NCBI GenBank assembly: GCA_013306675.1
Contig: JABLUY010000099.1
Location: forward strand, 56,034 to 120,033
Direction: 5' to 3'
DNA length: 64,000 nucleotides
Origin: Thraustochytrium sp. TN22
Lineage: Eukaryota; Sar; Bigyra; Thraustochytrida; Thraustochytriidae
Made by a program: the position numbers and the translations under genes. The number at the start of each line of letters is the position of its first letter. The stretch's first letter is position 1. Positions 973 to 36,741 of this stretch are shown here, in pieces. Under the pieces are notes generated by a model. It was not told the DNA's origin, did not search any database, and saw only the letters and a program-made list of their open reading frames with translations.

Positions 973-3900
973 TTAATAGTTGCGCGTCGGGATCGGTGCA
1001 TGAAGCGAGGAGCGCATTGTCTGGCCCGTCGGGACGACGCGCGGCAAGTCGAGGTGCGGTTCCTGCGGCGGAGCAGCCGCAGAGGACTGGCGTTTGAGGT
1101 GCGTGAGGATCGGGTTCGGGTCGACGAGCGGCTTGGCGATGCCAAGCTCCTCCATTGCGCCGCAAATGTGCGAGACGCAAAGCGCCTGCTCGTCAAAGGT
1201 GCGGCCGAGCTCGGCCATGTTGCGCGAGTACGGGTGGGAGAACTCGATCCAGAAGACAATGAGCGCGTGCGTGGGGTGCGTGGCGCCCAGCGGTATGTGT
1301 CCGCCCTGGTGCAGCGGGTGCGCGAGCGAGCGGGCCTGGACGATGATCAGCGAGAAGGCGTTGGGGTGGGTCTCCACGAAGGTCTTCATGATCTCCTGGA
1401 GCTTGGCTAGCGTGGACTCCTTGGCGTCGACGGCTGGAATGTACGTGTCGAGGCGCACGGCGTGGTTGTGCGAGGTGGACAGGTTGGAGATGGGGCCGGC
1501 GCCGTGGGCGACATAGTTATTGTCGAGGCGCAGAAAGGTGCCGTCCATGTTGATGAAGTCAGTGGTGAGCAGGCGGATGCTGGTGACTGTGTAGAAGTTG
1601 CCACCCATAAGCACCATGTCACCGACGTCATACGGGTGATGTGCCAAGAGGTAGATGAGGTTCTGGAAGCTCGTGGCGACGGTAGTCCCGAAGACAAAAG
1701 AGTAGGCGACGATGATGGTGCCGATGGACGCGAGCATGGGGATGACGTCCGTGGTGTAGAGCGTGAGCGCGAGCGTGAGAACGATCATGAGCAGCAGGCT
1801 CATGATGACAACGTCCATGCCTTTGAGCACGGCCTGGGAGTCCGCGAGCGTGAGCGCGAGGTTGTAGCGAGCCTCGTAGAAGTTGTGGATGACGAAGCGA
1901 AAGTGCGTCCAGGTGACAAAGCCCTGCTTCTTGGTGTCAAAGTAGCGCGTCCAGACACGCTCCCAGTTGAACGAGGAGTCGAGCTCCATGAAGATGGGCA
2001 TGACGTCCTCTTTGAGTAGAAACTTCGCCGAGAAGCGGCCCGAGTTTGCCCCGTCGCCGCGGCCCATGCGACGACGCTGGCGCGCGTAGGCCAGGTTGGT
2101 GTTGCGTGCGAGCTGCTCGATGCGTTCGATGCTGCGCGGCGTGGTGGATCGGTTTTCGCTCGGGTCGAGCGCCGCCTTGGCCTTGCGCATGACGCTGGAG
2201 AAGCTGGCGCCGCCGCGGCCGCGGCGCCAATTGGGCGCCTTACGGTTAAGCGCGTCGCCGGCGGACCGCGAGGCGCGCAAGCCCCCCGCCGGCTCCGACA
2301 CGACCGAGTCCACCCCGGGCGTGTCGGTTGTCGACATTGTCGACATCTCGAACAGCGTGGGCTGCTGAGTACGCTTCTTCCTGTTGGCCTGGCCCAAAAA
2401 GCGCATGTCATCGCGCCAGATGATGGGCGACGCCGAGGCCGCGATCAGTGGCGGCGTGCGGCTACGGCTGAGACCGCTCGTCTCGTCCACGGACTGTGCG
2501 TCGCACTCGCGTTGCGGCTCGTGGTCGTGGTCGTGGAGATCAGGGTCGCGACCATGGTCTTCCTCGTGGCCGTGGTCGTGAAGTTGATCGTGGTTGTGGT
2601 GATCGTGGTCTTGGTCCCGGGAGCCGAGCGCGAGCGGCGCCTCGTAGACGTCATCATAGCTGTCGACTGTGTTGGTGCTCGCGAAAGAAGCGGCGCGCGG
2701 CACGGCGCGCAGGCCCGGCCTGGCGGCAGGCGGCGGGACAGCATTTGCGCTGAGCCCCGGGCGCGTCCCGTTCGCTACGGCCTTGGCGGCCTCGACGCGC
2801 GTGAGCAGCCAGGCGAAGACCGAGGTGGCTACCGGCTTGGAGCGCTTGGTCAGGCCATTGTCCATCCCTGCCTTGGTCGCCATGTGCTTGCCGGCGCGCG
2901 GCTCGAGGCCGTCGACGTGGTGTGCGTTGACGTAGCGGAGCAGCTTCTGCCAGAGCTCCGGGCCAACGTTGCCGCCGTCGCGCAGGATGCGCTGCATGCG
3001 CGTGTGCAGGCTCATGAGGACTGGGTCGGGCGCAACGCGGCGGAGCTTGGCGAGCACGAGCTCCTCGTGAAGCGTCTCCTTGACCTTTTCCTGGTAGGAG
3101 CGCGTGCCGAAGTCCTGCACGAGGTACATGCGCAGGAGGACGGCGGAGATGCGCGCCAGAATGGCGAGCGACCAGATACCGAGGAGGCGGGTGGCGTGAA
3201 AGTACGCCCGGGACCAGGTCGGCACAATCTCGCCGGAGCCGTCGCGCGGCACCCAGCAGGTGAGCAGGATTATGATAATGACAGACCAGAGGAAGGTGAC
3301 GAGAGAGTTGCGCACGGTGCCCAGGTAGAAGACGAGCGCTGTGGTGAAAATCTCCAGCTCTTTGGACTGCGAGAGGCGCACGCTCATGGAGAGCAGGCCG
3401 AAGAAGCCGATGATGGCCAGGTCCGCCACGACTGCGGACACCAGCGAGCAGCCGGTGAAGAGCAGGGCCACGGGCAGGTAGCGTTCGTCCAGGACGCTGA
3501 GTGCGCTCATGATTGCGCCGGAGATGATGAGGATGAGTCCCATGCCGCCCATTGCGACGATGAGGGGCCGCTTGGCGCAATACTCCTTGATTTTGGTGAC
3601 CCAGGCCGGCCTGCGCCGGCGGCGGCAGCAGGCCCAGGCCCCCCAGCCGCGCGCGCTGGCGGCGCCGTCCAGGTCGTCGGCCTCGCTGGCCCAGGCGTCC
3701 TCGTCCTCCACGGGCACGGCCTCCTTTTCTGCTTCCTGCATACGTGGGCTGCTAAGGTGGAGTAAGTGCTGCTCCATCTGCTTGTCGGCGGTCTTGCTTA
3801 GGTCCAGGGCCAGCACGGGCTGCGTCTCAGTCCCGGAGGTGGGCGCGGTCTCGTGGATGGGCGTGACCCCGATCATGAGCGGTGGCTGGAACGAGGAAGC

Positions 3901-4428
3901 GTCGATGCCAGCGCTCATGGAGTACCCGCCCTCGGACTGCGTTTCCATGGTCGGATCGTAATACGCGTCCTCGTGCTCCGCATACGCTGCCTCGTACTCG
4001 AAGCTCGGCTGGCCGCCCTGCGCAGACCGGCTGGACAGCACCGACGTGCTCCCGGACGGCTGGTCATACTGTGACCCTGTCGTGAGCACGGAGCTCGCCG
4101 GCGCAAACTCATCGTGCGGCGCCACGCGCGCTGCGCCATCGTCCTGGCCGTCTTCGGACACGACGCCTGCGCTCTCGTCGCTGCGCCCCGCGCCTCTCCG
4201 CTCCTGCCTCATCCTCCTGGGCGTCACGCTCTCCTCGCTATTATCGCCCAGCCCCTGGCTCTGCTGTCCATCCCGCGTGCCGCTCGCCTCCTCCTCCTCC
4301 TCCTCCTCCTCTTCGCGCTCCAGGTCCTCCTCCTGCGCGGTTGCCGCGGCGGCGGCCCTGCTCGCCTGGTTCACCTCCTGGTCCTGCTCCGCGTATTGTG
4401 GCCGCAGCTCCTGCTCGCGCCGCAGCAT
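973..4428 (-). CDS. MscS-like mechanosensitive channel with His/Asp-rich linker (1151 aa)
   Basis: Intronless frame from ATG (4426-4428) to 973. The long N-terminus is acidic (an E-run near residues 38-48). Four probable membrane helices follow at about residues 286-309, 316-346, 358-392 and 410-436. A long cytoplasmic linker contains a His/Asp-rich stretch at about 603-640. Next comes an EF-hand-like segment around FDTKKQGFVTW, just before the helix beginning MDVVIMS (about 870), and the pore helix with AYSFVFGTT. The MscS signature HHPYDVGD, the beta domain (SIRLLTTDFINMDG, SNLSTSHN) and a cytoplasmic alpha/beta domain complete it. This order (TMs, EF-hand-like, MscS) resembles fungal Msy-type channels, which act in osmotic and calcium signalling; the role here is inferred. 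It is oriented opposite to its paralogues, with 2.8 kb to the next one. Confidence 0.92.
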   Translation of the reverse strand: MLRREQELRPQYAEQDQEVNQASRAAAAATAQEEDLEREEEEEEEEEASGTRDGQQSQGLGDNSEESVTPRRMRQERRGAGRSDESAGVVSEDGQDDGAARVAPHDEFAPASSVLTTGSQYDQPSGSTSVLSSRSAQGGQPSFEYEAAYAEHEDAYYDPTMETQSEGGYSMSAGIDASSFQPPLMIGVTPIHETAPTSGTETQPVLALDLSKTADKQMEQHLLHLSSPRMQEAEKEAVPVEDEDAWASEADDLDGAASARGWGAWACCRRRRRPAWVTKIKEYCAKRPLIVAMGGMGLILIISGAIMSALSVLDERYLPVALLFTGCSLVSAVVADLAIIGFFGLLSMSVRLSQSKELEIFTTALVFYLGTVRNSLVTFLWSVIIIILLTCWVPRDGSGEIVPTWSRAYFHATRLLGIWSLAILARISAVLLRMYLVQDFGTRSYQEKVKETLHEELVLAKLRRVAPDPVLMSLHTRMQRILRDGGNVGPELWQKLLRYVNAHHVDGLEPRAGKHMATKAGMDNGLTKRSKPVATSVFAWLLTRVEAAKAVANGTRPGLSANAVPPPAARPGLRAVPRAASFASTNTVDSYDDVYEAPLALGSRDQDHDHHNHDQLHDHGHEEDHGRDPDLHDHDHEPQRECDAQSVDETSGLSRSRTPPLIAASASPIIWRDDMRFLGQANRKKRTQQPTLFEMSTMSTTDTPGVDSVVSEPAGGLRASRSAGDALNRKAPNWRRGRGGASFSSVMRKAKAALDPSENRSTTPRSIERIEQLARNTNLAYARQRRRMGRGDGANSGRFSAKFLLKEDVMPIFMELDSSFNWERVWTRYFDTKKQGFVTWTHFRFVIHNFYEARYNLALTLADSQAVLKGMDVVIMSLLLMIVLTLALTLYTTDVIPMLASIGTIIVAYSFVFGTTVATSFQNLIYLLAHHPYDVGDMVLMGGNFYTVTSIRLLTTDFINMDGTFLRLDNNYVAHGAGPISNLSTSHNHAVRLDTYIPAVDAKESTLAKLQEIMKTFVETHPNAFSLIIVQARSLAHPLHQGGHIPLGATHPTHALIVFWIEFSHPYSRNMAELGRTFDEQALCVSHICGAMEELGIAKPLVDPNPILTHLKRQSSAAAPPQEPHLDLPRVVPTGQTMRSSLHAPIPTRNY

Positions 4429-7212
4429 CGCGCGCCAGCCCGTCTGCCCGCGCCGCGGGTCGCGCCCGCCGCCGCCCGGACGCGCCTCGGGCCGGCCGAG
4501 CGCGCCGTGGACTCCTGGACCTGGACCTCCTTCTCCCGCTCGTCCTCCGCCGCCACGCGCGCCGCCGTGTTCTCACATGTCAGCCAAGCAAGCAACAAAG
4601 CCTGAGAGAGAGAAGGCGCCGCGGGACGGCCGGGCTCGGTCGCCCGCACCGGACGCGGGGCACCCATTCGCTAGGGATAGGGGCGGGGCTCCGGGTCCGC
4701 TGCGGCTGGCGACGCGGGAGGTCCGCTGTGGCGTGGTTCCCTCTACGCCAGCGTCCTGGGATTCAGGAATCTGAATCAAAGATGCGGCCTGGCTGGCTCA
4801 GGCTGGTTGGTTGGCTGGCGGGAGGGGGTCAAGGCTGGCGCGGGACGCAGAGGAGCTGGTCGGCAGAATCGCAGATGGGCAGAGCCAAGCGCCGCGGCTG
4901 GCTGACCGGCGGGCGGTTGCGTTGACGCTTCCAAACGAACTCCAGAAGCCAAGGTGCTGGTGGCCCCGCGTGGGGAGACGAGGAGCGCATGAGCTGCTGT
5001 CAGACATTGAGAAGACGCACTGCCGCAGTCCTCTTCAACGGCACAGCTAGAAGAATCGCGGGGTGATGCGGTTCAAGTTCTGTGCAACGATGCCCGGGCC
5101 GGTGAGACGAATGGGCTTGGCCAAGGCCGCAGCTTCGCAGATTTGGCGATGGCATGCAACCGAGACGTGCAGCCAAGCGGAGACTCAAGGCGCCAGCGCC
5201 ACGCAGCACAAGGACGTCCTGCAGCCAGATATCGGCAAGCCTGAGCACTGCGAGCAGGCGCGAGGCTCGGGCAGCAAGACCAGAGGCCAGGAAGCGCGCA
5301 GTTTCCTGGCAAACTCTCATGATGGTCTCGCGGCGCACACGTCACTTGACGTACACACCACACAGTGGACACTCAGTCGCGCACTGCTCGATGCGGCCTC
5401 ACTCAGGCTGCCACCACCAGCCTGAGCTCGATCGGCGGACGGGCTCTTCTGCAGCACAGATCACTCCTCAGGCTGTCACAAGGCGGCACAAAGGCTTTGG
5501 TGACGAGCCCCGGAGAGATCAAGACCCGTCTGTACAAGCGCGGCGCGGCGACCAGCAGCGGCAGCCGCCAGGGCACCGGCCCGCTCCGGCTACGGGCGCC
5601 GTGGCCCGGTTGGCCGGGCCTGCCTCTGGCACCGCCGCACATTTCGTCAAATCTTGGATCGTGACTCGTCTTCGTTTGTTGCTGCCTATCGGCCGCTCGC
5701 TCAGCGGACGCCGTCCGAAAGCCGCGCATCGGAGGCGAGGCCCGGAGCGCCGGGAGCGGCGCGTCGCGGCGCGTCGGCGCCGCTGTACGGCCGCGGCCAC
5801 ATGAGGCTCGCCCTGTACCAGGTCGCCCGCCACGTCGTGGGCATAATGAGTCTTGGCTTCATCGACGTTCGCCTCGCCTTCGGCGCTCGCCGCTGGTGCC
5901 GGCACGGCGCCGTCGCACTTTGCGGTGCCGTGCCGCGAGCGGCTGGCCAGCCGGCGCTCGGGCGACGCCGCGACGGGCTTGGAAGGTGGGCTGCCCCGCG
6001 TTGCAGCCAGCTTCCTGTTCCTCGCCACCACGCCATCGCAGCCTCATGAGTCGTGACTCTCGGGGTGCGCGTCCGTCCGCAGAAGGCGGCCTGGCCCGGC
6101 TGGCCCGGCCTGGCCGCCGCGGCCGGCGTCGGCGTCGTCATGGCGTCTCGCTCGCGCTTTCTTGGGCGGGCGTTGCCACGCGCGCGCGCGCAGAGAGACT
6201 CTCGCGCCGCGGCGCCGCGCTGCTAGCGCACGCACGTCGAACGAGCGCGCGAGAGCGAGAGGGCGCCCGGCCTCCAAGGTCAACCGAGAATGTCTCGTGC
6301 TCAGGCATGTCTTCGTTCGGGCTCCAACTCCAACTTCGAGCTTCGTTTCGAATTCGAATTCAAATCGCGCGGGCGTCGTGTCGCAGCCCGCCTGGTACCG
6401 AGCCTGCAGCCCGCCCGCCAGCCCGGCCGAGCCTCGGCGGCGCCGTCCGTCTCGCTCGTCGACGCTCGAGCTCTGCGCCGCGCTACATGCAAGCAGCCAG
6501 CCAGCCAGCGAGCGCCCCGGCGTTCGTCCGGAGCGCGGCGCGGTCCCAGCCGCCCCGCCTCAGGACCAGGCGGCTGTTTCCTTCGCAGCCTCAGCCTGCC
6601 CTGCCGTGCAGAGCGGCCCGCCTCCCCCGCGGCCGCGGCCGCAGCGTCGGAGCGCCTCTGCCAGCGCGCCGAGTCTGCGGAGTCTGCGCGCGGCGGGCTC
6701 CGCTCGACTCCGAGGCGCGGCTCGAGGCCCGGGCGGCCAACCCGAGCGGCCCAGGCTAGGCTGGCTGCAGCGCTCGCTGCCCGTGCCTCGTGAATCGAGA
6801 TCGCTTGCGCCGCGGCGGTCCGGCCCGCGGCAAGCCCGGCGCCCCGGCCGCCTGAGCGTCGAGCTCGCTCGCCGGGTACTGCAGTGCAGGCCACTGCAGG
6901 CCACCAAGAGCAAGCTGTGCTTCCGCTCGGGCGCACGCGCCAGGGGCCGGCCAGCGACTGCCAACGCTCCCTCACTGCGCTGGCGCAGTCTGGCGGGCCG
7001 GGCGAGCGAATCAATCAAAGCCCAATCATCGATCGTCGGCCGAGGCGGACCCTCGGTCGCGCGGCCGCCGCTCCACACGGCGCGGCGCGGCGCGGCGAGC
7101 GCGTGGGAGGCAGGCAGGGAGGCAGGGAGGGAGCGGGCAGGCAGCGGCGGCGCGGGACGCCAAAGCTTTGACTAGGCATCGGCATCCCAGCGCAGCGCAG
7201 CGCAGCGCGCAG
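4429..7212. other. Gene-free divergent upstream region of two MscS-like genes
   Basis: About 2.8 kb between the starts of two divergent channel genes. It is very GC-rich with short simple repeats, CG runs near 6180-6260, and an AT-richer palindrome-like patch (ttcgaattcgaattc) near 6345-6360. All ORFs here are arginine/proline/alanine-rich and lack recognisable domains, so I call none. It presumably holds both promoters. Confidence 0.5.
7188..7209. repeat. Short GCGCA/CGCAG pentanucleotide repeat in 5' leader
   Basis: About four copies of a 5-bp unit (cgcag) ending a few bases before the ATG at 7213. The same unit is expanded just before the start of the next paralogue. Confidence 0.8.
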
Positions 7213-10017
7213 ATGTCGCGCGCCGAGGATGGGGCCGCGGCGGTGCCGCCGCCGACGGCGCCGGGGCTGCCGCTCTCGTCCGGCGTGGCGACGTCGGCAT
7301 CGGGCGAGCAGCGCGTGCGGTCGTCCATGCAAGAGCCGCGCAGCCCGGTGAGCACCAAGAGCGGGCGCAGCCCGAGGCCCAACACGCTGCGCGTCCAGCA
7401 GCACCGGCGGCGGCAGACGCTCTCGGGCGCGGACGAGGCCCTGGAGCGGCAGCTCAAGTCGGACATTCAGAACCCGGCGGAGGCCAGGTCGCACGGCGGC
7501 GGCGGGCCCAACAAGGAACACGAGGTGCGCATCATGTCCGAGACAAATTTTGTGGACAGCGAGTTCGACGAGGACGCGGAGAAGAAGCTGATCGAGTCCA
7601 AGTTCGCGAACTCTTGCTGCGGATTCATATACCGGCGGCCCATTAAGATCTTCCTCTTTGTGCTGGGGTGTATCATGATGGCGGCCGGCGCCAGCATGTT
7701 GGCCATCGAGCGCGTGGACGTGCGCCAGGTCCCGGAGGCGCTGCTCTTCGTGGGCAGCTCCTTCGCCATGGGCTTCGTCTCGGACATGATCACGCTGGGC
7801 TTTGGCGCCTTGATGACATGGATGGTGGACGTGGCGCAGAACCGCCACAAGGACGCCGCCTACCAGCTCGCCGTCGGCACCTTCTACTACCGCAGCGTGG
7901 AGAGCAAGATCACCGTGCTCGTCTGGAACCTGCTCGTCATCATCATGCTCACGAGCTTCGTGCCGCGTGAGGACGACAGCACGGCCATCGTGGCCACCTG
8001 GTCCGAGGCGTACTTTTATCTGGTTCGCTTCCTCGGCATCGGCGCCATGGTGCTCTTCGCGCGCGTGCTCACGCAGCTCATCCGCATGTACTTGACGCAG
8101 GACTTTGGCGTGCGGTCCTTCGCGCGCAAGGTGCGCGAGTCGCTGGAGCGCGAGGTGCTGCTGGCCAAGCTGCGCCGCGTACGCCCGGACCCGTCCTTTC
8201 TGAGCCTGCTGCACCGCCTGCGCGCCATCAACAGCCAGGGCGGCTACGCGGACCCGGAGCTCTGGCAGGCCGTCGTGCGCCACGTCAACACGCACCACAT
8301 TGACGGCTTCGAGCCGCTCAACGGCAAGCACTCGCCGGTCAAGCCGGGCCAGGACCCTGGCCTGTCGCGGCGCGCGCGCCCGGTGGCCGCCTCCATCTTC
8401 TCGCGTATCATGGAGAGCATCAAGGACCACCGCCGTGCCATGTTCGCGGCCAGCGAGAATGACCTGGAGACTGACATCGGTGACGAGGACGACGACGACC
8501 GCAACGTCGACGATAGCTATGAGGAGGAGAGCCGCGCCGCGGACGACGGCACGGACTCGAACGAGCAGCCCCAGTCGCTGGAGGAGCCCGCCGCCCTGGA
8601 GGTGGCGGTCGACGATCCGCCGGCGCCCGCGGGCCAGCACCAGACGCAGCAAACCACGCGTGGCGCACGGCGCAGCCGGCGGACGAGCGCCGGCAGCGCG
8701 ACGGTTCCGGCGCCAACGCCGGCGTCCGCGGCCATGACCTCGCCCGGGTCCTTTGCCAGCGAGGTGCGCCGAAACGAGAGCTTCCGCACGATCCGCACGG
8801 TCGACGTGGAACGCACCGAGACCGGGACTGTCATCGTCGAGGGCGACGAGGAGCGTGCCGCGGGCGCCGTCCCCGAGGAGGAGCCCGCGCCCGTGCTCAC
8901 GTCGGCTCTGGCCGAGGTGGTGAACACGCGCGAGGCCGCGCACCTGCGCGAGCTGGAGGACGAGCCGACCGAGCTCATCCAGGAGATGTCCAAGGAGATT
9001 GCGCGCGTGCAGAACACGACCGCGGACACGCGGTCGCGACGCGAGCTCATGAGCAACCTGTCGCAGCGCCTGGGCAACAAGGTGTTCTTCAAGGCCGAGG
9101 TGATTGAGGTGCTGCACGAGATCGACTCCGCGTACGATTGGGAGCGAGTGTGGACCGACTACCTGGACCCCAAGGGCAGCGGGCTGCTCACGTGGCCGCG
9201 CATGCGCACGCTCGTGCTGGACTTTTACGAGGACCGCTACAACCTGTCGCTTTCGCTGCAGGACTCCAAGGCGGCCATCAAGAGCATGGACGTGGTCATC
9301 ATGAGCGTGCTCCTGGTTGTGGTTGTGCTCATTAGCCTGACCTTTTTCACCACGGACATCGGTTCCATGCTTACGAGTATCGCCACGGTCGTGCTCGGCT
9401 ACTCGTTCATCTTCGGCAGCACGGCGGCCGAGTCCTTCACCAACATCATCTTCCTCTTCGCCGTGCACCAGTATGACGTCGGCGACACGCTGCTCTTCAA
9501 TAACAATCGCTACACGGTGCACCGCATCCGTCTGCTCACCACGGACTTTTTGCAGGCCGACGGCGCGCTCATGCGCCTCAAAAACTCCTACGTGGCCGGC
9601 ATCGGCCCCATTTTGAACCTGTCCACCTCGCAGAACTACTCGTATGGCTTCAACATCTACATTCCGGCCACCGACATGCGCGAGGAGCTCTTCAACGACT
9701 TCAAGAACTCCATCAACAAGTTCGTCATGTCGAACCCGGCCTCCTTCACCGGCTGCTTCGTCTCCTCGCGCGAGTTCGTCCACCCGCTCGAGGCCAACGG
9801 CGAGCTCCCGTCTAAGGGCACGCACCCAACGCACGTCAAGATTGTGCTCTGGCTCACCTACGCGTACAGCTTCGAGGACGGCGGCCGCGTCTTCACCGAC
9901 CAGACGCGCTTCATGATTCACGTCTGCGAGCTCATGAACCGCCTCGGTATCAGCAAGCCCATCATCGACGGCGACCACACGCATCACCCTCCCGGCGCCT
10001 CCTCAGGCCAGCGTTGA
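7213..10017 (+). CDS. MscS-like mechanosensitive channel with EF-hand-like segment (934 aa)
   Basis: I chose ATG 7213 (MSRAEDGAAAV); the frame is open upstream only to a TTG in repeat sequence. The Ser/Arg-rich N-terminus carries RPNTLRVQQHRRRQTLSGAD, shared with the next gene and a possible phosphorylation region. Helices lie at about 143-163, 175-201, 230-251 and 267-294. An acidic linker precedes an EF-hand-like segment (DPKGSGLLTW, about 650-660). Helices at about 693-713 and 717-745 follow, with pore-region motif GYSFIFGSTAAESF, then HQYDVGD and the beta domain (RIRLLTTDFLQADG, LNLSTSQN). It is a tension-gated channel by family knowledge. The C-terminal cytoplasmic domain ends GISKPIIDGDHTHHPP. 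It is very similar in sequence and layout to the gene at 11565, so a recent tandem duplicate. No intron signals are needed. Confidence 0.94.
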   Translation: MSRAEDGAAAVPPPTAPGLPLSSGVATSASGEQRVRSSMQEPRSPVSTKSGRSPRPNTLRVQQHRRRQTLSGADEALERQLKSDIQNPAEARSHGGGGPNKEHEVRIMSETNFVDSEFDEDAEKKLIESKFANSCCGFIYRRPIKIFLFVLGCIMMAAGASMLAIERVDVRQVPEALLFVGSSFAMGFVSDMITLGFGALMTWMVDVAQNRHKDAAYQLAVGTFYYRSVESKITVLVWNLLVIIMLTSFVPREDDSTAIVATWSEAYFYLVRFLGIGAMVLFARVLTQLIRMYLTQDFGVRSFARKVRESLEREVLLAKLRRVRPDPSFLSLLHRLRAINSQGGYADPELWQAVVRHVNTHHIDGFEPLNGKHSPVKPGQDPGLSRRARPVAASIFSRIMESIKDHRRAMFAASENDLETDIGDEDDDDRNVDDSYEEESRAADDGTDSNEQPQSLEEPAALEVAVDDPPAPAGQHQTQQTTRGARRSRRTSAGSATVPAPTPASAAMTSPGSFASEVRRNESFRTIRTVDVERTETGTVIVEGDEERAAGAVPEEEPAPVLTSALAEVVNTREAAHLRELEDEPTELIQEMSKEIARVQNTTADTRSRRELMSNLSQRLGNKVFFKAEVIEVLHEIDSAYDWERVWTDYLDPKGSGLLTWPRMRTLVLDFYEDRYNLSLSLQDSKAAIKSMDVVIMSVLLVVVVLISLTFFTTDIGSMLTSIATVVLGYSFIFGSTAAESFTNIIFLFAVHQYDVGDTLLFNNNRYTVHRIRLLTTDFLQADGALMRLKNSYVAGIGPILNLSTSQNYSYGFNIYIPATDMREELFNDFKNSINKFVMSNPASFTGCFVSSREFVHPLEANGELPSKGTHPTHVKIVLWLTYAYSFEDGGRVFTDQTRFMIHVCELMNRLGISKPIIDGDHTHHPPGASSGQR

Positions 10018-11564: not shown

Positions 11565-14500
11565 ATGGAGGCCGGGTCGCCCGGGTCGCCCGGCTCGCCC
11601 GGCTCGCCGGGCAAGGCGCTGTCGTCCGGCGCGTCCACGGAGACGTCCGCGCGGCAGAGCAGGTCGACGCAGGTGACGCACGGGACGCAGGCGCAGCCAG
11701 GGCTGCAGCCACAGCGCAGCGTGCGCGGTATGCGCAGCATGCGCAACATGCGCAGCATGCGCAGCGTGCGCAGGAGCACGCAGGAGCCGCTGAGCCCGAC
11801 GAGCGAAAAGTCCCCGGCCACGGTGCGCAGCGGCGGCAGGCCCAACACGCTGCGTATGCAGCAGCAATCTCGGCAGCAGACGCTCTCGGGCGCCGATGAT
11901 GAGCTCGAGCGCCATCTCGCGTCTGACATCAAGCAGCCGCAGCCGCATCCGCAGGAAAACCCGGCCGAGATCGAGATGCCCAAGGACCTAGGCGGTCCGG
12001 CCGACCAGATCCTGCCCGGCTTACGCAACCTTTCATCCGGCTGGGAGGACAGTGAGTTCGACGCGGACGCGGAGAAGCGCATGCGCAAGCCCAAGTACAC
12101 CAACGCGTGGTGCGGCTTCGTGTACCGTCGGCCCATCAAGATCTTTCTCTTCGTGCTGGGCTGCTGCATGATGGCGGCCGGCGGAGGCATGCGCGGCGGC
12201 CCGCGCGTCGACGTGCGCCAGGTTCCAGAGGCGCTCCTCTTTGTGGGCAGCTCCTTCGCAATGGGTTTCGTCTCGGACATGATTGCCCTGGGCTTTGGCG
12301 AGTTCATGAAGTGGTCGGTGAGCATTGTGCACAACAAGCACAAGGACGTTGCCTACCAGCTGGCCGTGGCGGACTTTTACTACCGTTGCGTGGCCAGCAA
12401 GATCTCTGTTCTCCTTTGGAACCTTTTTACCATCATCATGCTCACTAGCTTTGTGCCGCGCGAGTCGGACAGCACCGCCATTGTGGCCAGCTGGGCCCAG
12501 GCGTACTACTACCTCGTGCGCCTCCTCGGCATTGGCGCCATGGTGCTCTTCGCGCGGGTGCTCACGATTCTCATTCGCATGTACCTGACGCAGGACTTTG
12601 GAATCCGGTCCTTCGCTAGCAAGGTGCGCGAGTCGCTCGAGCGCGAGGTGCTCCTGGCCAAGTTCCGCCGCGTGCGCCCGGACCCAACCTTTCTCAGCCT
12701 GCTGCAGCGCCTGCGCGCCATCAACAAGCAGGGTGGCTATGCGGATCCGGAGCTCTGGCAGGCGGTCGTGCGCCACGTCAATACGCACCACATCGACGGC
12801 TTCGAGCCGCTCAACCGCAAGCACTCCCCGGCCAAGCCGGGCCAGGATCTGGGCCTGAACCGTCGCGCACGCCCGGTCGCCGCCTCCATCTTCTCGCGCA
12901 TCATGGAGAGCATCAAGGAACGCCGCCGCGCCCTCTTTGCCGGCGAAGACGTCGAGGTTCACACCGAGGTGGACGATGACGAGGAGGAGGACGAGGACGT
13001 TGATCAAGAGGATGATGAGGAGAAGCCCGGTGCAGACGGCGTGGCTGGTGTGATGCGCGCCGCGAGCCAGACGCAGGGTGAGAATAGCAAACCCGACGAG
13101 GATGCCAGTGCCGCCAGTCGCCGCCACACCTCGCAGCAGCCGCAGCCTCAGCCGCAGCCACAGCCGCAGGAGGAACTGAATGAGTCAGATGTGCCTCTCG
13201 CTGGCCTGGAGCTTGCCATTCCGCCTGTCGTGCCACCCGCCAGCGCCAATGTGGCTTTCGTATCGCGGTCCTCCCGTGCTCTCCCGCGCGCGCGGCAGCA
13301 GCCGCAGCACCAACAGCAACAGCAGGGAGGAGACGTGGATGAGACACACGTGAACTCCTTTGAATTCGACAACGGCGTCACGTCGCCGCGAAGTGCGGTG
13401 AGCGAAATTCGCACACTGCGGACCGTGCGCACCGCCGAAGTGGAGCCCGTGGAGCTCGTTCCGGCTGGGCAAGAGGCGCCGATCGGGCTTGCCGCGGCGC
13501 TGGCCGAGGTGATCCAGACCAAGGGCGAGTCGCAGCATGCCGTCCTTGAGGAGGAACCGATCGAGCTCATCCAGGAGATGTCCAAGGAGATCGCGCGCGT
13601 GCAGGACGCAGAGGTGGACACGCGTTCGCGGCGCGAACTCATGAGCAACCTGTCGCAGCGGCTTGGCAATAAGGTCTTCTTCAAAACCGAAGTGATCGAA
13701 GCGCTTCACGAGATCGACTCGGCATACGACTGGGAGCGCGTCTGGACCACGCATCTGGACCCCAAGGGCACGGGCCTGTTGACCTGGCCGCGCATGCGCA
13801 CCATGGTTTACAAGTTCTACGAGGACCGCTACAACCTGTCTCTTTCGCTGCAAGACTCCAAGGCGGCAATCAAAAGCATGGACGTGGTCGTCATGGGGGT
13901 GCTTATGGTGATTGTGGTCCTCATCAGTCTGACGTTCTTTACCACGGACATTGGTTCCACGCTCACCAGCGTCGCCACGGTTGTGGTTGGTTACAAATTC
14001 ATCTTCGGCGACAACGCCGCAGAGTCCTTCACCAATATCGTCTTCCTCTTCGGCGTACATCCATACGACGTAGGCGACACCGTCCTGTTCAACAACAACC
14101 GGTACACCGTGTATCGCATCCGCCTGCTCACCACGGACTTTTTGCAGGCGGACGGATCGCTGATGCGCCTGGAGAACTCCTACGTCGCGGGGGTTGGGCC
14201 CATTCTCAATCTGTCCACCTCGCAGAATCACTCCTTCGGCTTCAACATCTACATCCCGGCCACCGATATGCGCGAGGAAATGTGGAACGACTTCAAGACC
14301 TCCATCAGCAAGTTCATTGCGGCCAACCCGACCTCCTACACCAACTGCTTTGTCTCCTCACGCGAGTTCGTGCATCCGCTCGAAGCGAACGGCGAGCTCC
14401 CGGCCAAGGGCACGCACCCGACACACATCAAGATTGTGCTCTGGCTCACGTACGCTTACAGCTTCGAGGACGGCGGCCGTGTCTTCACGGACCAGACGCG

Positions 14501-14633
14501 CTTCATGATTCACGTTTGTGAGCTCATGAACCGTCTTGGCATCAGCAAGCCCATCATTGAGGGCGACCACCAGCGCTACCATCCCGAAATCGAGGTGGAG
14601 CCTGACAGTGAGGCAACAGAAACGCACGCGTAA
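11565..14633 (+). CDS. MscS-like mechanosensitive channel (1022 aa), pore helix with charged residues
   Basis: ATG 11565 follows the pentanucleotide repeat. The N-terminus is Gly/Ser/Pro repeats (GSPGSPGSPG), then a Met/Arg/Ser repeat (MRSMRNMRSMRSVR). Helices lie at about 192-209, 222-248, 279-299 and 315-342. The linker is longer than in the 7213 paralogue and includes a Pro/Gln repeat (about 522-535) and a short poly-Q (about 585). An EF-hand-like DPKGTGLLTW lies at about 732-742; pore helices at about 772-792 and 796-824. MscS signature HPYDVGD, beta domain and C-terminal domain are intact. Oddities: the pore-region helix reads GYKFIFGDNAAES, with K811 and D816 where the paralogue has uncharged Ser, and the first TM loop has GGGMRGGPR. 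It is predicted to be a tension-gated channel; the charged positions may change conductance or gating. Confidence 0.94.
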   Translation: MEAGSPGSPGSPGSPGKALSSGASTETSARQSRSTQVTHGTQAQPGLQPQRSVRGMRSMRNMRSMRSVRRSTQEPLSPTSEKSPATVRSGGRPNTLRMQQQSRQQTLSGADDELERHLASDIKQPQPHPQENPAEIEMPKDLGGPADQILPGLRNLSSGWEDSEFDADAEKRMRKPKYTNAWCGFVYRRPIKIFLFVLGCCMMAAGGGMRGGPRVDVRQVPEALLFVGSSFAMGFVSDMIALGFGEFMKWSVSIVHNKHKDVAYQLAVADFYYRCVASKISVLLWNLFTIIMLTSFVPRESDSTAIVASWAQAYYYLVRLLGIGAMVLFARVLTILIRMYLTQDFGIRSFASKVRESLEREVLLAKFRRVRPDPTFLSLLQRLRAINKQGGYADPELWQAVVRHVNTHHIDGFEPLNRKHSPAKPGQDLGLNRRARPVAASIFSRIMESIKERRRALFAGEDVEVHTEVDDDEEEDEDVDQEDDEEKPGADGVAGVMRAASQTQGENSKPDEDASAASRRHTSQQPQPQPQPQPQEELNESDVPLAGLELAIPPVVPPASANVAFVSRSSRALPRARQQPQHQQQQQGGDVDETHVNSFEFDNGVTSPRSAVSEIRTLRTVRTAEVEPVELVPAGQEAPIGLAAALAEVIQTKGESQHAVLEEEPIELIQEMSKEIARVQDAEVDTRSRRELMSNLSQRLGNKVFFKTEVIEALHEIDSAYDWERVWTTHLDPKGTGLLTWPRMRTMVYKFYEDRYNLSLSLQDSKAAIKSMDVVVMGVLMVIVVLISLTFFTTDIGSTLTSVATVVVGYKFIFGDNAAESFTNIVFLFGVHPYDVGDTVLFNNNRYTVYRIRLLTTDFLQADGSLMRLENSYVAGVGPILNLSTSQNHSFGFNIYIPATDMREEMWNDFKTSISKFIAANPTSYTNCFVSSREFVHPLEANGELPAKGTHPTHIKIVLWLTYAYSFEDGGRVFTDQTRFMIHVCELMNRLGISKPIIEGDHQRYHPEIEVEPDSEATETHA

Positions 14634-32997: not shown

Positions 32998-34547
32998 TCA
33001 AGTGTGCTCGTGGGCATTGAGGAGACCATCACGCAAAACGACACGGGCGTACAGGGCAAGGAGTGGGAGCATGTTTTGCGGAGGAGAGTGCTGCAGTGCG
33101 CCGAGGGAGTCGTCAAGGGCAGCGCTGAGCGCCGCGACATGCTTGGCAAGGACCTCTGGCGAGGCGGAGGAAGTAGACGGGGTCAGGGACGCGTGGTGCT
33201 CGTCCTTGTTGGCGAGAGCGCGCAGCGCACGGCTGTAGTAGGCGCCGAGGTTGAGCTGCGGCGAGTGTGCCGGGAGGCGGCAGAGGGTGAGGTCGCCGCC
33301 CGAGGCGCGCAGGAGGGCGCAGAGCGCCGCGGCGTCCGGGAGCTGGGCGAAGGCGGCGTCGTTATCGTCCGTGGAGGGCGCGTCCTGGTCGGCGCGGCCC
33401 TCGACAACCAGGACGACCTTCTTGCCAAGCAGGCTGGCGCGACGCTCGGGCGACTGCAAGAGCGAGGCGCAGAGCTCGTTGAGGAAGGAGAGGCGGTCCA
33501 TCTGGCCGTACGCCGCGCGGATGAGCGCCTGGCGCCGCAGCGACACGGGCCGGGCCGCGAAGCGCCGGCCCAGAAGCACGCCGTCATGCGCGTGCACAGC
33601 GAGCGCCACGTGCGCCCGGTAGATGTGGTAGACGCCAGCGGTCTGAATCTGTTGCGCCAACGCCCCCGCGTTGGAGCCACCGGCCGGCTTGTGCGCTTCC
33701 TGTGGGTCCATGGCGCAGAAGAAGGGCGTCTCCTTGACAAAGGCCACGTAGTGGTCCTCGCTCTGCAGCATCTGTGACATTGCCTTGGCAAACCCGAGGC
33801 GCTCCGCCATGACCTCGGCGCTGTTGCTCAGCGCCGCCGTGGCGGCCGCAGCAGGTGAGACGGCCAACTTCCACGTGAAGAAGCGCCGCGTCAGCCACCG
33901 CTGCACCGTCGTGCGGCTCCGGATGCGCTGCTTTGTGTACAACAGCTTGGCGTGCGGAAGCGCGTCCAGCAGCTCCATGCGCACGTGCCCGCCCGGCTGT
34001 CGCTCTGCCTCCGCCAGCGTCAGCCCGCTGTCGCCCTTGGCCTCCTCCGCCACCAGCAGCCGCCGCGCCAGCTCCTCGTTCACGCGCAGTCGCGCCTCAT
34101 CCAGCGGCGCGAACGGGTCCTCGTCCATGTACCGCGTTAGCTCCTCCATCATCCACTCCTGCATCTTGTACGGCCCGGTCTTGTGTTGGTCATGCCGGCG
34201 GTCCCGCGCCGCCTGCTGCCTGCCCATTTTGCGTGCGCGCTTGCACAGGCTGTCCGCCGTGCCGCGGGGCATGCCCAGGAGGTCGGCGATGCCGTGCCTC
34301 GCGCTCGGGCCGTGCGCGGCGTCCGCCTTGAGCACCAGGTCCTTTTCCCAGTTCTTGTAGGACTTGCGCTGCTGCGTTTGGTGAGCGGACGCCTTGCCTT
34401 TGGGCTGCTTTGGCTGCTGTTGCGTTGCCGGTTGTTCTTGTTCCTGCTCCTGCTCCTGCTCCAGCTGCTTGTTGATGCTGCGACCACTCAGCTGCTGTTG
34501 CAGGAGTTGCTGCAAAAGCTGCTGCATTTGATGCGGCTGCAACGTGG

Positions 34548-34606
<59 letters not shown>

Positions 34607-34885
34607 ATTTGCGGCTGCTGCATTTGCGGGTGCATCTGCGGCTGCTGCTGCAAAGGCTGCTGCTGATGCGGCTGATGGGGCTGCGCGAGCGCGAGCGCCA
34701 ACGGCTGCTCCTGGCTCTGCGGCTGCGGCTGCGGCCCGGTCGCTTGCAGCGGCATGTGGAGGAGCTGCTGCATGGACAGTAGCTGCTGCAGCTGCAATGG
34801 CTGCTGCTGCAATGGCTGCTGCTGCAACGGCTGTTGCTGTTGCTGTTGATGCTGCTGCTGCGGCTGCTGCTGCAATGGCTGCTGC

Positions 34886-34964
<79 letters not shown>

Positions 34965-34978
34965 GCATGAGCTGCAAC

Positions 34979-35024
<46 letters not shown>

Positions 35025-35277
35025 GCATGAGCTGCTGCAGCTGCTGCAGCTGCGGCTGCTGATGCTGATGATGCTGCAGCAGCATCATGATCGGCTGCAC
35101 CTCCGGCTGAATGCACATGGCGTCCACGCCCAGCGCTTTCCTTTCTGTCCTTGCGTGCGGCCTCATGGCTTCTGCCAGCTCCCTCCTCCGCTTCCTGCCT
35201 CGCCCGTCCTCCTCGGCCGCTGCCAAAGCATTCCTCCGCTCGTCCGCGCCCGTGCGCGTCAGGAACCCCATCGCCAT
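32998..35277 (-). CDS. PolyQ protein with catalytically dead Tc1/mariner-IS630-like transposase fold (759 aa)
   Basis: The frame extends to a GTG at 35553, but I take the first ATG, 35277 (MAMGFLTRTGADERR). Residues about 74-290 are glutamine runs (CAG codons) with Leu, Pro and His. Then a helix-turn-helix-like region (KSYKNWEKDLVLKADAAHG ... RHGIADLLGMP) and RTTVQRWLTRRFFTWK. A DDE-like domain follows with the landmarks of Tc1/mariner/IS630 enzymes: VAFVKETPFF (family: F-x-D-E-T-x-F), VVLVVEGRADQD (family: V-x-D-N-A) and LPAHSPQLNLGAYYS (family: LPPYSPDLNPIE). All three acidic positions are changed: K515, E626 and A679. So it cannot be an active transposase of that type, yet the frame is long and open. 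This suggests a domesticated DNA-binding or regulatory protein. There are no inverted repeats that I could see. Confidence 0.7.
34548..35060 (-). repeat. CAG-type trinucleotide repeat coding polyglutamine
   Basis: Several interrupted CTG/CAG runs (longest about 34552-34605, 34891-34930, 34940-34962, 34982-35022) within the previous gene. Reverse-frame ORFs of Leu or Ala repeats over it are artefacts. Confidence 0.95.
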
Positions 35278-36741
35278 CCTCCCTGCCGTCCGCCGGCCGT
35301 CCGAGCCCCGGCCGCTACCTCCCAGACGAGCGCCGCGCCGGCGCGTGCGTCTCCGCGGCCGCCTCCCCTTCAAGCGGACTGCGCCGCCTCGCCGGCGCGC
35401 CCGCCTCGCGCGCCGCGCGCCTCGCCCGCCTCGCCTCGCCTCGTTTGCCTCGCCTCGTTTGCCTCGCCTCGCCAGCGCCCGTCCCGGACGCGTCCCAGGA
35501 CGGCGCGCGGCTGTCCCCCGCAGCGCGCGCACTGCGCCGCGCAGCGTGTTCACGTGTTGGCGACTGCGGCCAACTCACAGCTCTAAGTTAGGTGTTGCTG
35601 CACTTCAAGTTGTTGGCTGGTCGCGCTGCACTTCCGCGCCCGAGGCCGCGGCGCAGCCTCCCTGTGGCAGGTGCAGTGGAGAGGCCTTTGCGCTCGGGTG
35701 CCAGTGGGGGCGCGGCGGGCGAGCGTCGCCATCGCAGAAGGCCGCGCGAAGCGACCCGAGAGGGCCCCGGAGCAGGCGTGCCGCGCTCGATTCTTCGAGC
35801 TCGGTCGGAGCGCCAGCCCCGGCTGCCGTGGCCAGCGCGCGGACGGCCGCGGCTCGGAGAGAGGGAGGGCGGCTCGAGGCGATGAGCGAGGGCCTCGGCG
35901 TCTCGGCGCTCAGGTCGCAGGCGCTGGGCGGCGTCCGGGCCCGGACGTCTTCCTTCTCTCGCTCGCCGCCAGCCCCCCTTTACGAGCTACTGTGTGCCGG
36001 CAGGTACTACTAAGTACTTTAGGCCTCGGCGAACAGTGCGGCGGCCGGCAGGAGGCGCAACCGAGACGCGGCGCGATGCGACGCGACGCGACGCGACGTG
36101 ACGCGACGCGAGGCTTCGCCACGGCCACGGCAGCTCGCTTGGGGCCGCTGCCGGCGCCGGGAGGCAGGGTGAGCAAGCCACGTCGCGTAGGCGTCCGGGA
36201 TGCCCTGTGAACGCGGACGGCGGCCACGGGGCCCGTCGACACTGCATGCGGTGGCCTCCGCAGCAATAAGGAAGGGCCAACGGGGGTCACACGGCCTTAC
36301 GATTAGTCGGTCACTAGTCAAGAGCCTGCCCTCCCTGTGGAGATGACCTTTTTCACTGACTCTACTAACTCGGCGAGGCGTGGCCTCCTCCTCACTTAGC
36401 GGCTGCGCCCGCGTCTCTCGACCCATGCCGTGGCGTGCCGCGCCGCGCCTGAGCAGCCAGCTGCGGCTGCGGCTGCCATGGGCTGCCTGGCTTGTGGAGA
36501 GCTTGCTTGCTTGCTTGCTTTTCATAGCACCGCGCCGTGGTGGCCCGTGGCACGCGGCTTCCAAGTTCGCGACTTGGGAAGTAAGAGTCTCTCAGGCTAC
36601 AGAGAGAAAGAGAACGGCCAGGCCCCGGCCGGGCCGGGTGCTCTTGCTTTCCCTCGCTGATACGCCGTACGGCCAGGCGCCGCGGCCTGGGCCGGGCCCC
36701 TTGCCGCCCAAAGGCTCTAGCTCGCTCGCTCGCCAGGCTAG
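35278..36741. other. Gene-free region upstream of the transposase-derived gene
   Basis: 1.46 kb. Contains TCGCC-type short runs (35420-35470) and a CGACG pentanucleotide run (36076-36110). No supportable gene. Confidence 0.5.
36076..36110. repeat. CGACG pentanucleotide run
   Basis: About six near-perfect copies (cgacgcgacgcgacg) in noncoding DNA. Confidence 0.8.

Follow-up and report, generated by a model that had tools for sequence, protein, structure and literature searches.

Does a long open reading frame that keeps the landmarks of a transposase, yet none of its catalytic acids, represent a host gene or a transposon copy on its way to decay? This question is raised by a 759-codon frame, encoding the protein P0001, on a 64,000-nucleotide stretch of the Thraustochytrium sp. 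TN22 genome (the window; JABLUY010000099.1:56,034-120,033). Positions given below without a contig or locus are those of the window, and genome searches covered the 37.9-Mb assembly of 453 contigs.

Architecture of the locus

Translation of 32998-35277 on the reverse strand gave 759 residues and a single terminal stop, as the initial annotation had claimed, and the three motifs it named (FVKETPFF, VVEGRADQD and LPAHSPQLNLG) were all found in P0001. The start position is uncertain because the frame remains open upstream as far as a GTG at 35553, which corresponds to a protein of 851 aa. The features of the locus are as follows, with the coordinates of the three catalytic-position codons calculated from the residue number.

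32998..35277 (-), 759-codon frame (protein P0001), transposase-derived, with one terminal stop on translation
34357..35118 (-), Gln-rich N-terminal region with approximate limits, in which the longest run has 19 Q
34491-35087, CAG repeat tract, with similar stretches on 29 further contigs
32998..34356 (-), transposase-like core of 452 codons plus stop, helix-turn-helix-like and then DDE-type region
34192..34356 (-), probable helix-turn-helix region, residues ~308-362, by homology with the loci L003, L007 and L008 of the same genome
33733..33735 (-), codon of K515, the first catalytic Asp position
33400..33402 (-), codon of E626, the second catalytic Asp position
33241..33243 (-), codon of A679, the third catalytic Glu position

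Elsewhere in the window, three long frames at 973-4428 (-), 7168-10017 (+) and 11565-14633 (+) look like paralogous membrane proteins; judging by eye, we take them to be possible mechanosensitive channels. On a different contig (C124, L052-L054), a PfaA-like frame of 3044 residues scored 2539.7 bits summed, against a cut-off of 1010.1, and is adjoined by a 2083-residue frame of opposite direction with matches to parts of that model. We assume this paired arrangement to be that of the thraustochytrid PUFA synthase, and the place to be a likely PUFA synthase locus.

Loss of the catalytic triad

The claim that all three catalytic acids have been lost was borne out. K515, E626 and A679 stand exactly where they had been numbered, and pair with the D, D and E of the intact relatives L002, L003 and L004 in four MAFFT modes, one of the additional modes having used four of the six alignment rows. 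P0001 thus lacks the DDE/D triad of IS630-Tc1-mariner transposases. In the first block, P0001 reads FVKETPF where the relatives have FVDELPF, FLDEVPF and YVDEMPF, and in the third block NLGAYYSR where they have NLCENYNR, NLCEFFNR and NLCEYYNR. The residues beside the lost acids are mostly kept in both of these blocks, as is the 52-residue spacing. The second block (VVEGR, compared to VMDNA, ISDCP and VMDND) has lost its other typical residues as well. The three catalytic columns cannot be considered disproportionately lost, since 31 of the 68 columns that are invariant among the intact relatives are changed in P0001. As judged from the substitutions themselves (D to K, D to E and E to A), P0001 is most likely devoid of metal-binding catalysis.

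Relatives in the TN22 genome

A search of the genome with the 452-residue core returned nine places at E up to 10, including the window locus itself. The strongest matches were L002 (8.7e-23), L003 (2.9e-21) and L004 (1.7e-20), with L004-L006 spanning 1.7e-20 to 1.1e-19. Weaker matches were obtained for L007 (5.9e-12), L008 (0.00135) and a place on contig C126 (L009, 0.069), the membership of which is backed by an 8.1e-18 match to the L004 protein. The closest protein relatives are 28-32% identical to the P0001 core. BLASTP aligned P0001 with L003 across 472 columns (2e-29, 27% identity), spanning all three catalytic blocks, while identity over aligned columns amounts to 24.5% for L002 and 25.5% for L004. 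Two further loci, L046 and L047, were reached through Pfam DDE_3; L047 lies under the DDE_3 cut-off and was retained on the basis of its 45% identity to L046. A DDE-type region is thus found at 10 loci, corresponding to 8 distinct proteins, with L008 as an extra locus that has the helix-turn-helix part alone. No stop occurs inside any of these 11 frames.

As read from the translations, D-D-E is present in L002, L003, L004-L006 and L046. L047 has an Asp at the third catalytic position, with which the protein may still be functional. L009 is altered, with Thr at the first position, Thr at the second in two of three alignments and Asp at the third, and L007 has either Thr or Asn at the second position, depending on the alignment. 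The residues lost in L007 and L009 can only be stated loosely, because the second catalytic column shifts with alignment mode. The L007 frame (L007:490-2484) has a Gln-rich N-terminal part of its own, and its core is rich in Ala and changed at the second catalytic position. The 442-residue frame of L008 (L008:1315-2643) retains only the helix-turn-helix part of the family (hhalign probability 81%, 1.2e-5, 99 columns), hence the genome contains a form free of the catalytic domain. By eye, a second similar unit seemingly lies upstream within the L008 frame.

L004 and L005 are located on one contig (C37) as inverted copies with flanks in common, and C37 therefore either carries an inverted duplication or was folded back on itself during assembly. 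L006 is located elsewhere, has different flanks, and is 98-100% identical to L004/L005 in most 100-column bins over ~2.9 kb, indels aside. We read L004-L006 as a family that has moved, with insertions at two sites.

Marginal matches comprise L059 (C12:46087-46350) to L007 at E 0.0026 and L064 (C354:10753-11157) to L008 at E 0.0038, which may be more distant relatives or low-complexity matches. Weak matches bearing stops were seen on C86 (E 0.047, two stops) and C398 (E 2.57, one stop), and the search that gave C354 and C398 yielded weak extra matches on C63 and C33.

Family assignment and spacing

The frame had been labelled Tc1/mariner-IS630-like. P0001 alone gave nothing significant against Pfam, NCBIfam or the PDB, and is scored by neither the NCBIfam IS630 model NF033545 nor Pfam DDE_3. 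NF033545 matched L002 (8.2e-10), L003 (1.3e-7), L006 (2.1e-10), L046 (1.8e-12) and L047 (0.0031), all under the curated cut-off, and DDE_3 matched L006 over its cut-off and L002 slightly under it. Homology to the IS630-Tc1-mariner group therefore extends to P0001 indirectly, via the alignment with L002, L003 and L004, and descent of P0001 from an IS630-Tc1-mariner-type transposase is supported by these sequence comparisons.

While this part of the label stands, assignment to Tc1/mariner proper does not. Catalytic positions 2 and 3 are separated by 52 residues in P0001, which places it outside the spacing of both Tc1/mariner (DD34-41E/D) and Sailor (DD78-111E, of which DD83E is common in several taxa, stramenopiles among them), as given in the available part of PMC8533490. 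The corresponding numbers are 52 for L002, 50 for L003, 60 for L004 and 83 for L046/L047. By spacing, L046/L047 are thus Sailor-like and the window family, at 50-60 residues, is neither. Spacing by itself is no proof that the family is novel, since the range of pogo is DD29-56D in the available part of PMC7386202. No description of a DD50-60E group was found in the literature, for which coverage of subscription journals was thin.

Comparison of a profile of the window family with L046/L047 aligned only 30 columns (probability 4.6%, E 0.0087), located in the helix-turn-helix part. The Sailor-like transposon L046:982-2902 has a triad that looks intact and is enclosed by perfect 16-base inverted repeats; visual inspection of its ends showed no TATA duplication. 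L047:1812-3413 is a second Sailor-like frame, situated near the end of contig C111.

Against the PDB, the only row for the family profile was a chain of 57 residues from the Sleeping Beauty transposase (E 0.74), and L046 gave 12 rows with no transposase among them. As neither search provided a usable row, no solved structure can be linked to the family. No relatives were found in a viral contig collection using whole P0001 and the L004 protein as queries, nor were relatives of the core found in a genome contig collection, a miss that carries little weight given that this collection consists of bacteria and archaea only; eukaryotes of this kind fall outside the design of both collections.

The Gln-rich arm and the helix-turn-helix region

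The whole P0001 frame contains 139 CAG and 17 CAA codons. The polyglutamine region that the initial annotation described as activator-like is thus present; its value as evidence for activation was rejected because CAG stretches like it were found on 29 other contigs. Indeed, 38 of the 57 listed DNA matches (40 of 498 candidates scored) fall in the CAG tract, one on its own contig and 37 on those 29 others. CAG expansion seems to be widespread across the TN22 genome.

A helix-turn-helix had also been proposed. For the P0001 core, Sigma70_r4_2 is the sole helix-turn-helix model listed, at a non-significant E of 0.33, and L003 matched HTH_29 under the cut-off at E 0.05. P0001 has no significant profile match, and its helix-turn-helix region is made probable by sequence homology to L003, L007 and L008.

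A host gene or a decaying copy

On balance, we favour the explanation that P0001 is a single-copy host gene that arose by exaptation and encodes a non-catalytic, nuclear DNA-binding protein. Exaptation is favoured because the triad is replaced, the frame is open, no close second copy is listed and the codon-position GC is host-like. Domestication as originally suggested is supported in part, by descent, by loss of the acids and by a frame that is open and host-like in its codon-position GC, and the argument that the Gln tract makes P0001 a regulator is abandoned.

The main alternative, which we consider rather unlikely, is that P0001 is a recently killed transposon copy, having lost catalysis lately with the frame yet to break. 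Among the 57 DNA matches listed (40 of 498 candidates scored), there is no second copy of the core. Within this set P0001 is therefore single-copy, as a domesticated transposase would be, and this speaks against a recent kill. Single copy by itself is no mark of exaptation, because the intact L003 is likewise without a close second copy. The codon-position GC of P0001 is 0.72/0.47/0.88, and its GC3 of 0.876, compared to 0.825-0.949 in ten window frames, is host-like and again argues against a recent kill. GC3 was considered as a clean mark of exaptation and rejected: the altered L007 (0.751) and L009 (0.742) are near L004 and L006 (both 0.739), and the intact L003 is at 0.872. Hence GC3 does not follow triad loss.

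In terms of sequence conservation, P0001 keeps 72 of 170 of the columns common to L002 and L004, with corresponding values of 68/156 for L003, 60/168 for L007 and 56/146 for L009, which favours a retained gene. The longer branch of P0001, 1.42 compared to 1.01 for L003, with 2.2 for L007 and 1.96 for L009, counts against it, and the placement of P0001 has a support of only 86/86. The core is Ile-poor and contains 16.4% Ala, compared to 6.4-9.1% in three intact relatives, which suggests that constraint has been relaxed, although a further frame of the window has a similar Ala content (16.0%). This relaxed-looking composition is what a recent kill would lead one to expect, and the 31 of 68 otherwise invariant columns that have changed point the same way. 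The three catalytic replacements do not, two of them being located within otherwise well-kept motifs. Taken together, P0001 looks like a gene under constraint that is weaker than that on an enzyme, or of a different kind.

The survival of the open frame was assessed by a decay simulation that assumed 10% indels and an equilibrium GC of 0.70. At 0.05 neutral substitutions per site with indels, the frame survived in 0.2% of P0001 cores and 0.3% of L003 cores, and at 0.1 in none of 1000, which speaks against a recent kill. This argument depends on the assumed indels, because with stops alone 29.8% of P0001 cores remained open at 0.05 (9.6% at 0.1), a proportion that would accommodate a recent kill. 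Between 32000 and 36700 there are 50 inverted pairs; the 25 listed have a complementarity of 70-89%, and none stood out as transposon ends. The method also missed the imperfect ends of L006, so that P0001 may still have ends of its own, which leaves room for a recent kill.

It appears improbable that P0001 is a repressor, i.e. a dead protein that binds the ends of, or pairs with, the live transposases of the family (L002 and L004-L006). Relatives with intact triads do occur in the same genome and one family is near-identical at three places. However, the identity of 24.5% and 25.5% to L002 and L004 makes common end-recognition or pairing doubtful, and no related ends were recognised beside the gene, albeit in a weak test.

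Continued activity through other residues or a different chemistry is highly unlikely: E626 is acidic, and a D-to-E substitution can bind metal in some enzymes, but the other two catalytic positions are occupied by Lys and Ala. We give equally little credence to an open frame without a protein product, held open by GC-rich and repeat-rich composition. GC-rich antisense frames of up to 990 codons do overlap likely genes in the window; however, when 4000 random sequences were matched to the 452-codon core in dinucleotide composition, only 5 of them had this frame open, and the other five frames of the core contain 3 to 11 stops each, so that the P0001 frame exceeds chance, while the 2e-29 homology to another long frame (L003) and a codon-position GC of coding type also count against it.

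Proposed origin and role of P0001

According to the favoured explanation, an IS630-Tc1-mariner-type transposase, with the 50-60 residue spacing seen in the intact relatives, would have become a host gene by exaptation. Replacement of the three acids would have abolished metal-binding catalysis, leaving the N-terminal helix-turn-helix part of the core to bind DNA and the RNase-H-like part to act as a structural or partner-binding module, with the Gln-rich arm as a presumably disordered tail. A DNA-binding role would be the most economical reading of the parts that remain. For P0001, the fold, the binding of DNA, a location in the nucleus, any effect on regulation, the target sites and the role in the host are all put forward here by extrapolation from its sequence.

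A wider scenario can be suggested tentatively, in which exaptation occurred repeatedly within the DD50-60 IS630-Tc1-mariner group and gave rise to P0001, L009, L007 and L008 as lineage-specific DNA-binding regulators or genome-defence proteins comparable to Cbp1/CENP-B. If the favoured explanation is true, P0001 provides an independent example of the conversion of a cutting enzyme to a DNA-binding protein, in a probable stramenopile protist, and the intact and altered states can be compared within one genome. Should the altered set prove to be conserved, this would suggest a lineage-specific regulator family.

Comparison with known domesticated transposases

P0001 is likely to represent a known kind of event, a catalytically dead domesticated transposase, in a little-studied lineage. 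Domesticated IS630-Tc1-mariner transposases have been described in vertebrates and fission yeasts (available parts of PMC7386202 and PMC10085805), and no description of a dead domesticated transposase in the thraustochytrid lineage was found in a literature search with thin coverage of subscription journals.

With respect to transposase families, the relatives L002, L003 and L006 resemble IS630 (NF033545), and L002 and L006 also DDE_3, whereas P0001 is scored by neither model and lacks the three acids. The Sailor DD82E superfamily (PMC8533490, in part) likewise belongs to the IS630-Tc1-mariner group and occurs in stramenopiles, and L046/L047 resemble it with their 83 residues. In contrast, positions 2 and 3 lie 50-60 residues apart in the window family.

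Among host genes, CENP-B, TIGD3, TIGD4 and TIGD5 share with P0001 an origin in the IS630-Tc1-mariner group and a triad that is no longer recognisable, and their functions are thought to be related to DNA binding (available text of PMC7386202). They differ in belonging to the pogo superfamily and the vertebrate lineage, and in having had Ka/Ks measured.

Cbp1/Abp1 of fission yeasts is similarly transposase-derived and combines a helix-turn-helix with a DDE-type domain. The Cbp1 triad is degenerate in the three S. pombe members, while four of the six S. osmophilus members have DDE or DDD, such that dead and intact triad forms coexist as they do in the TN22 genome. A related Geotrichum gene was called domesticated on the grounds that it has no inverted repeats, is single copy and occupies the same place in two strains. 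Unlike P0001, Cbp1/Abp1 is pogo-derived and has orthologues, synteny and retrotransposon LTR binding to its name; P0001 for its part belongs to another spacing group and carries a Gln-rich arm (all Cbp1/Abp1 and Geotrichum details as given in the available sections of PMC10085805).
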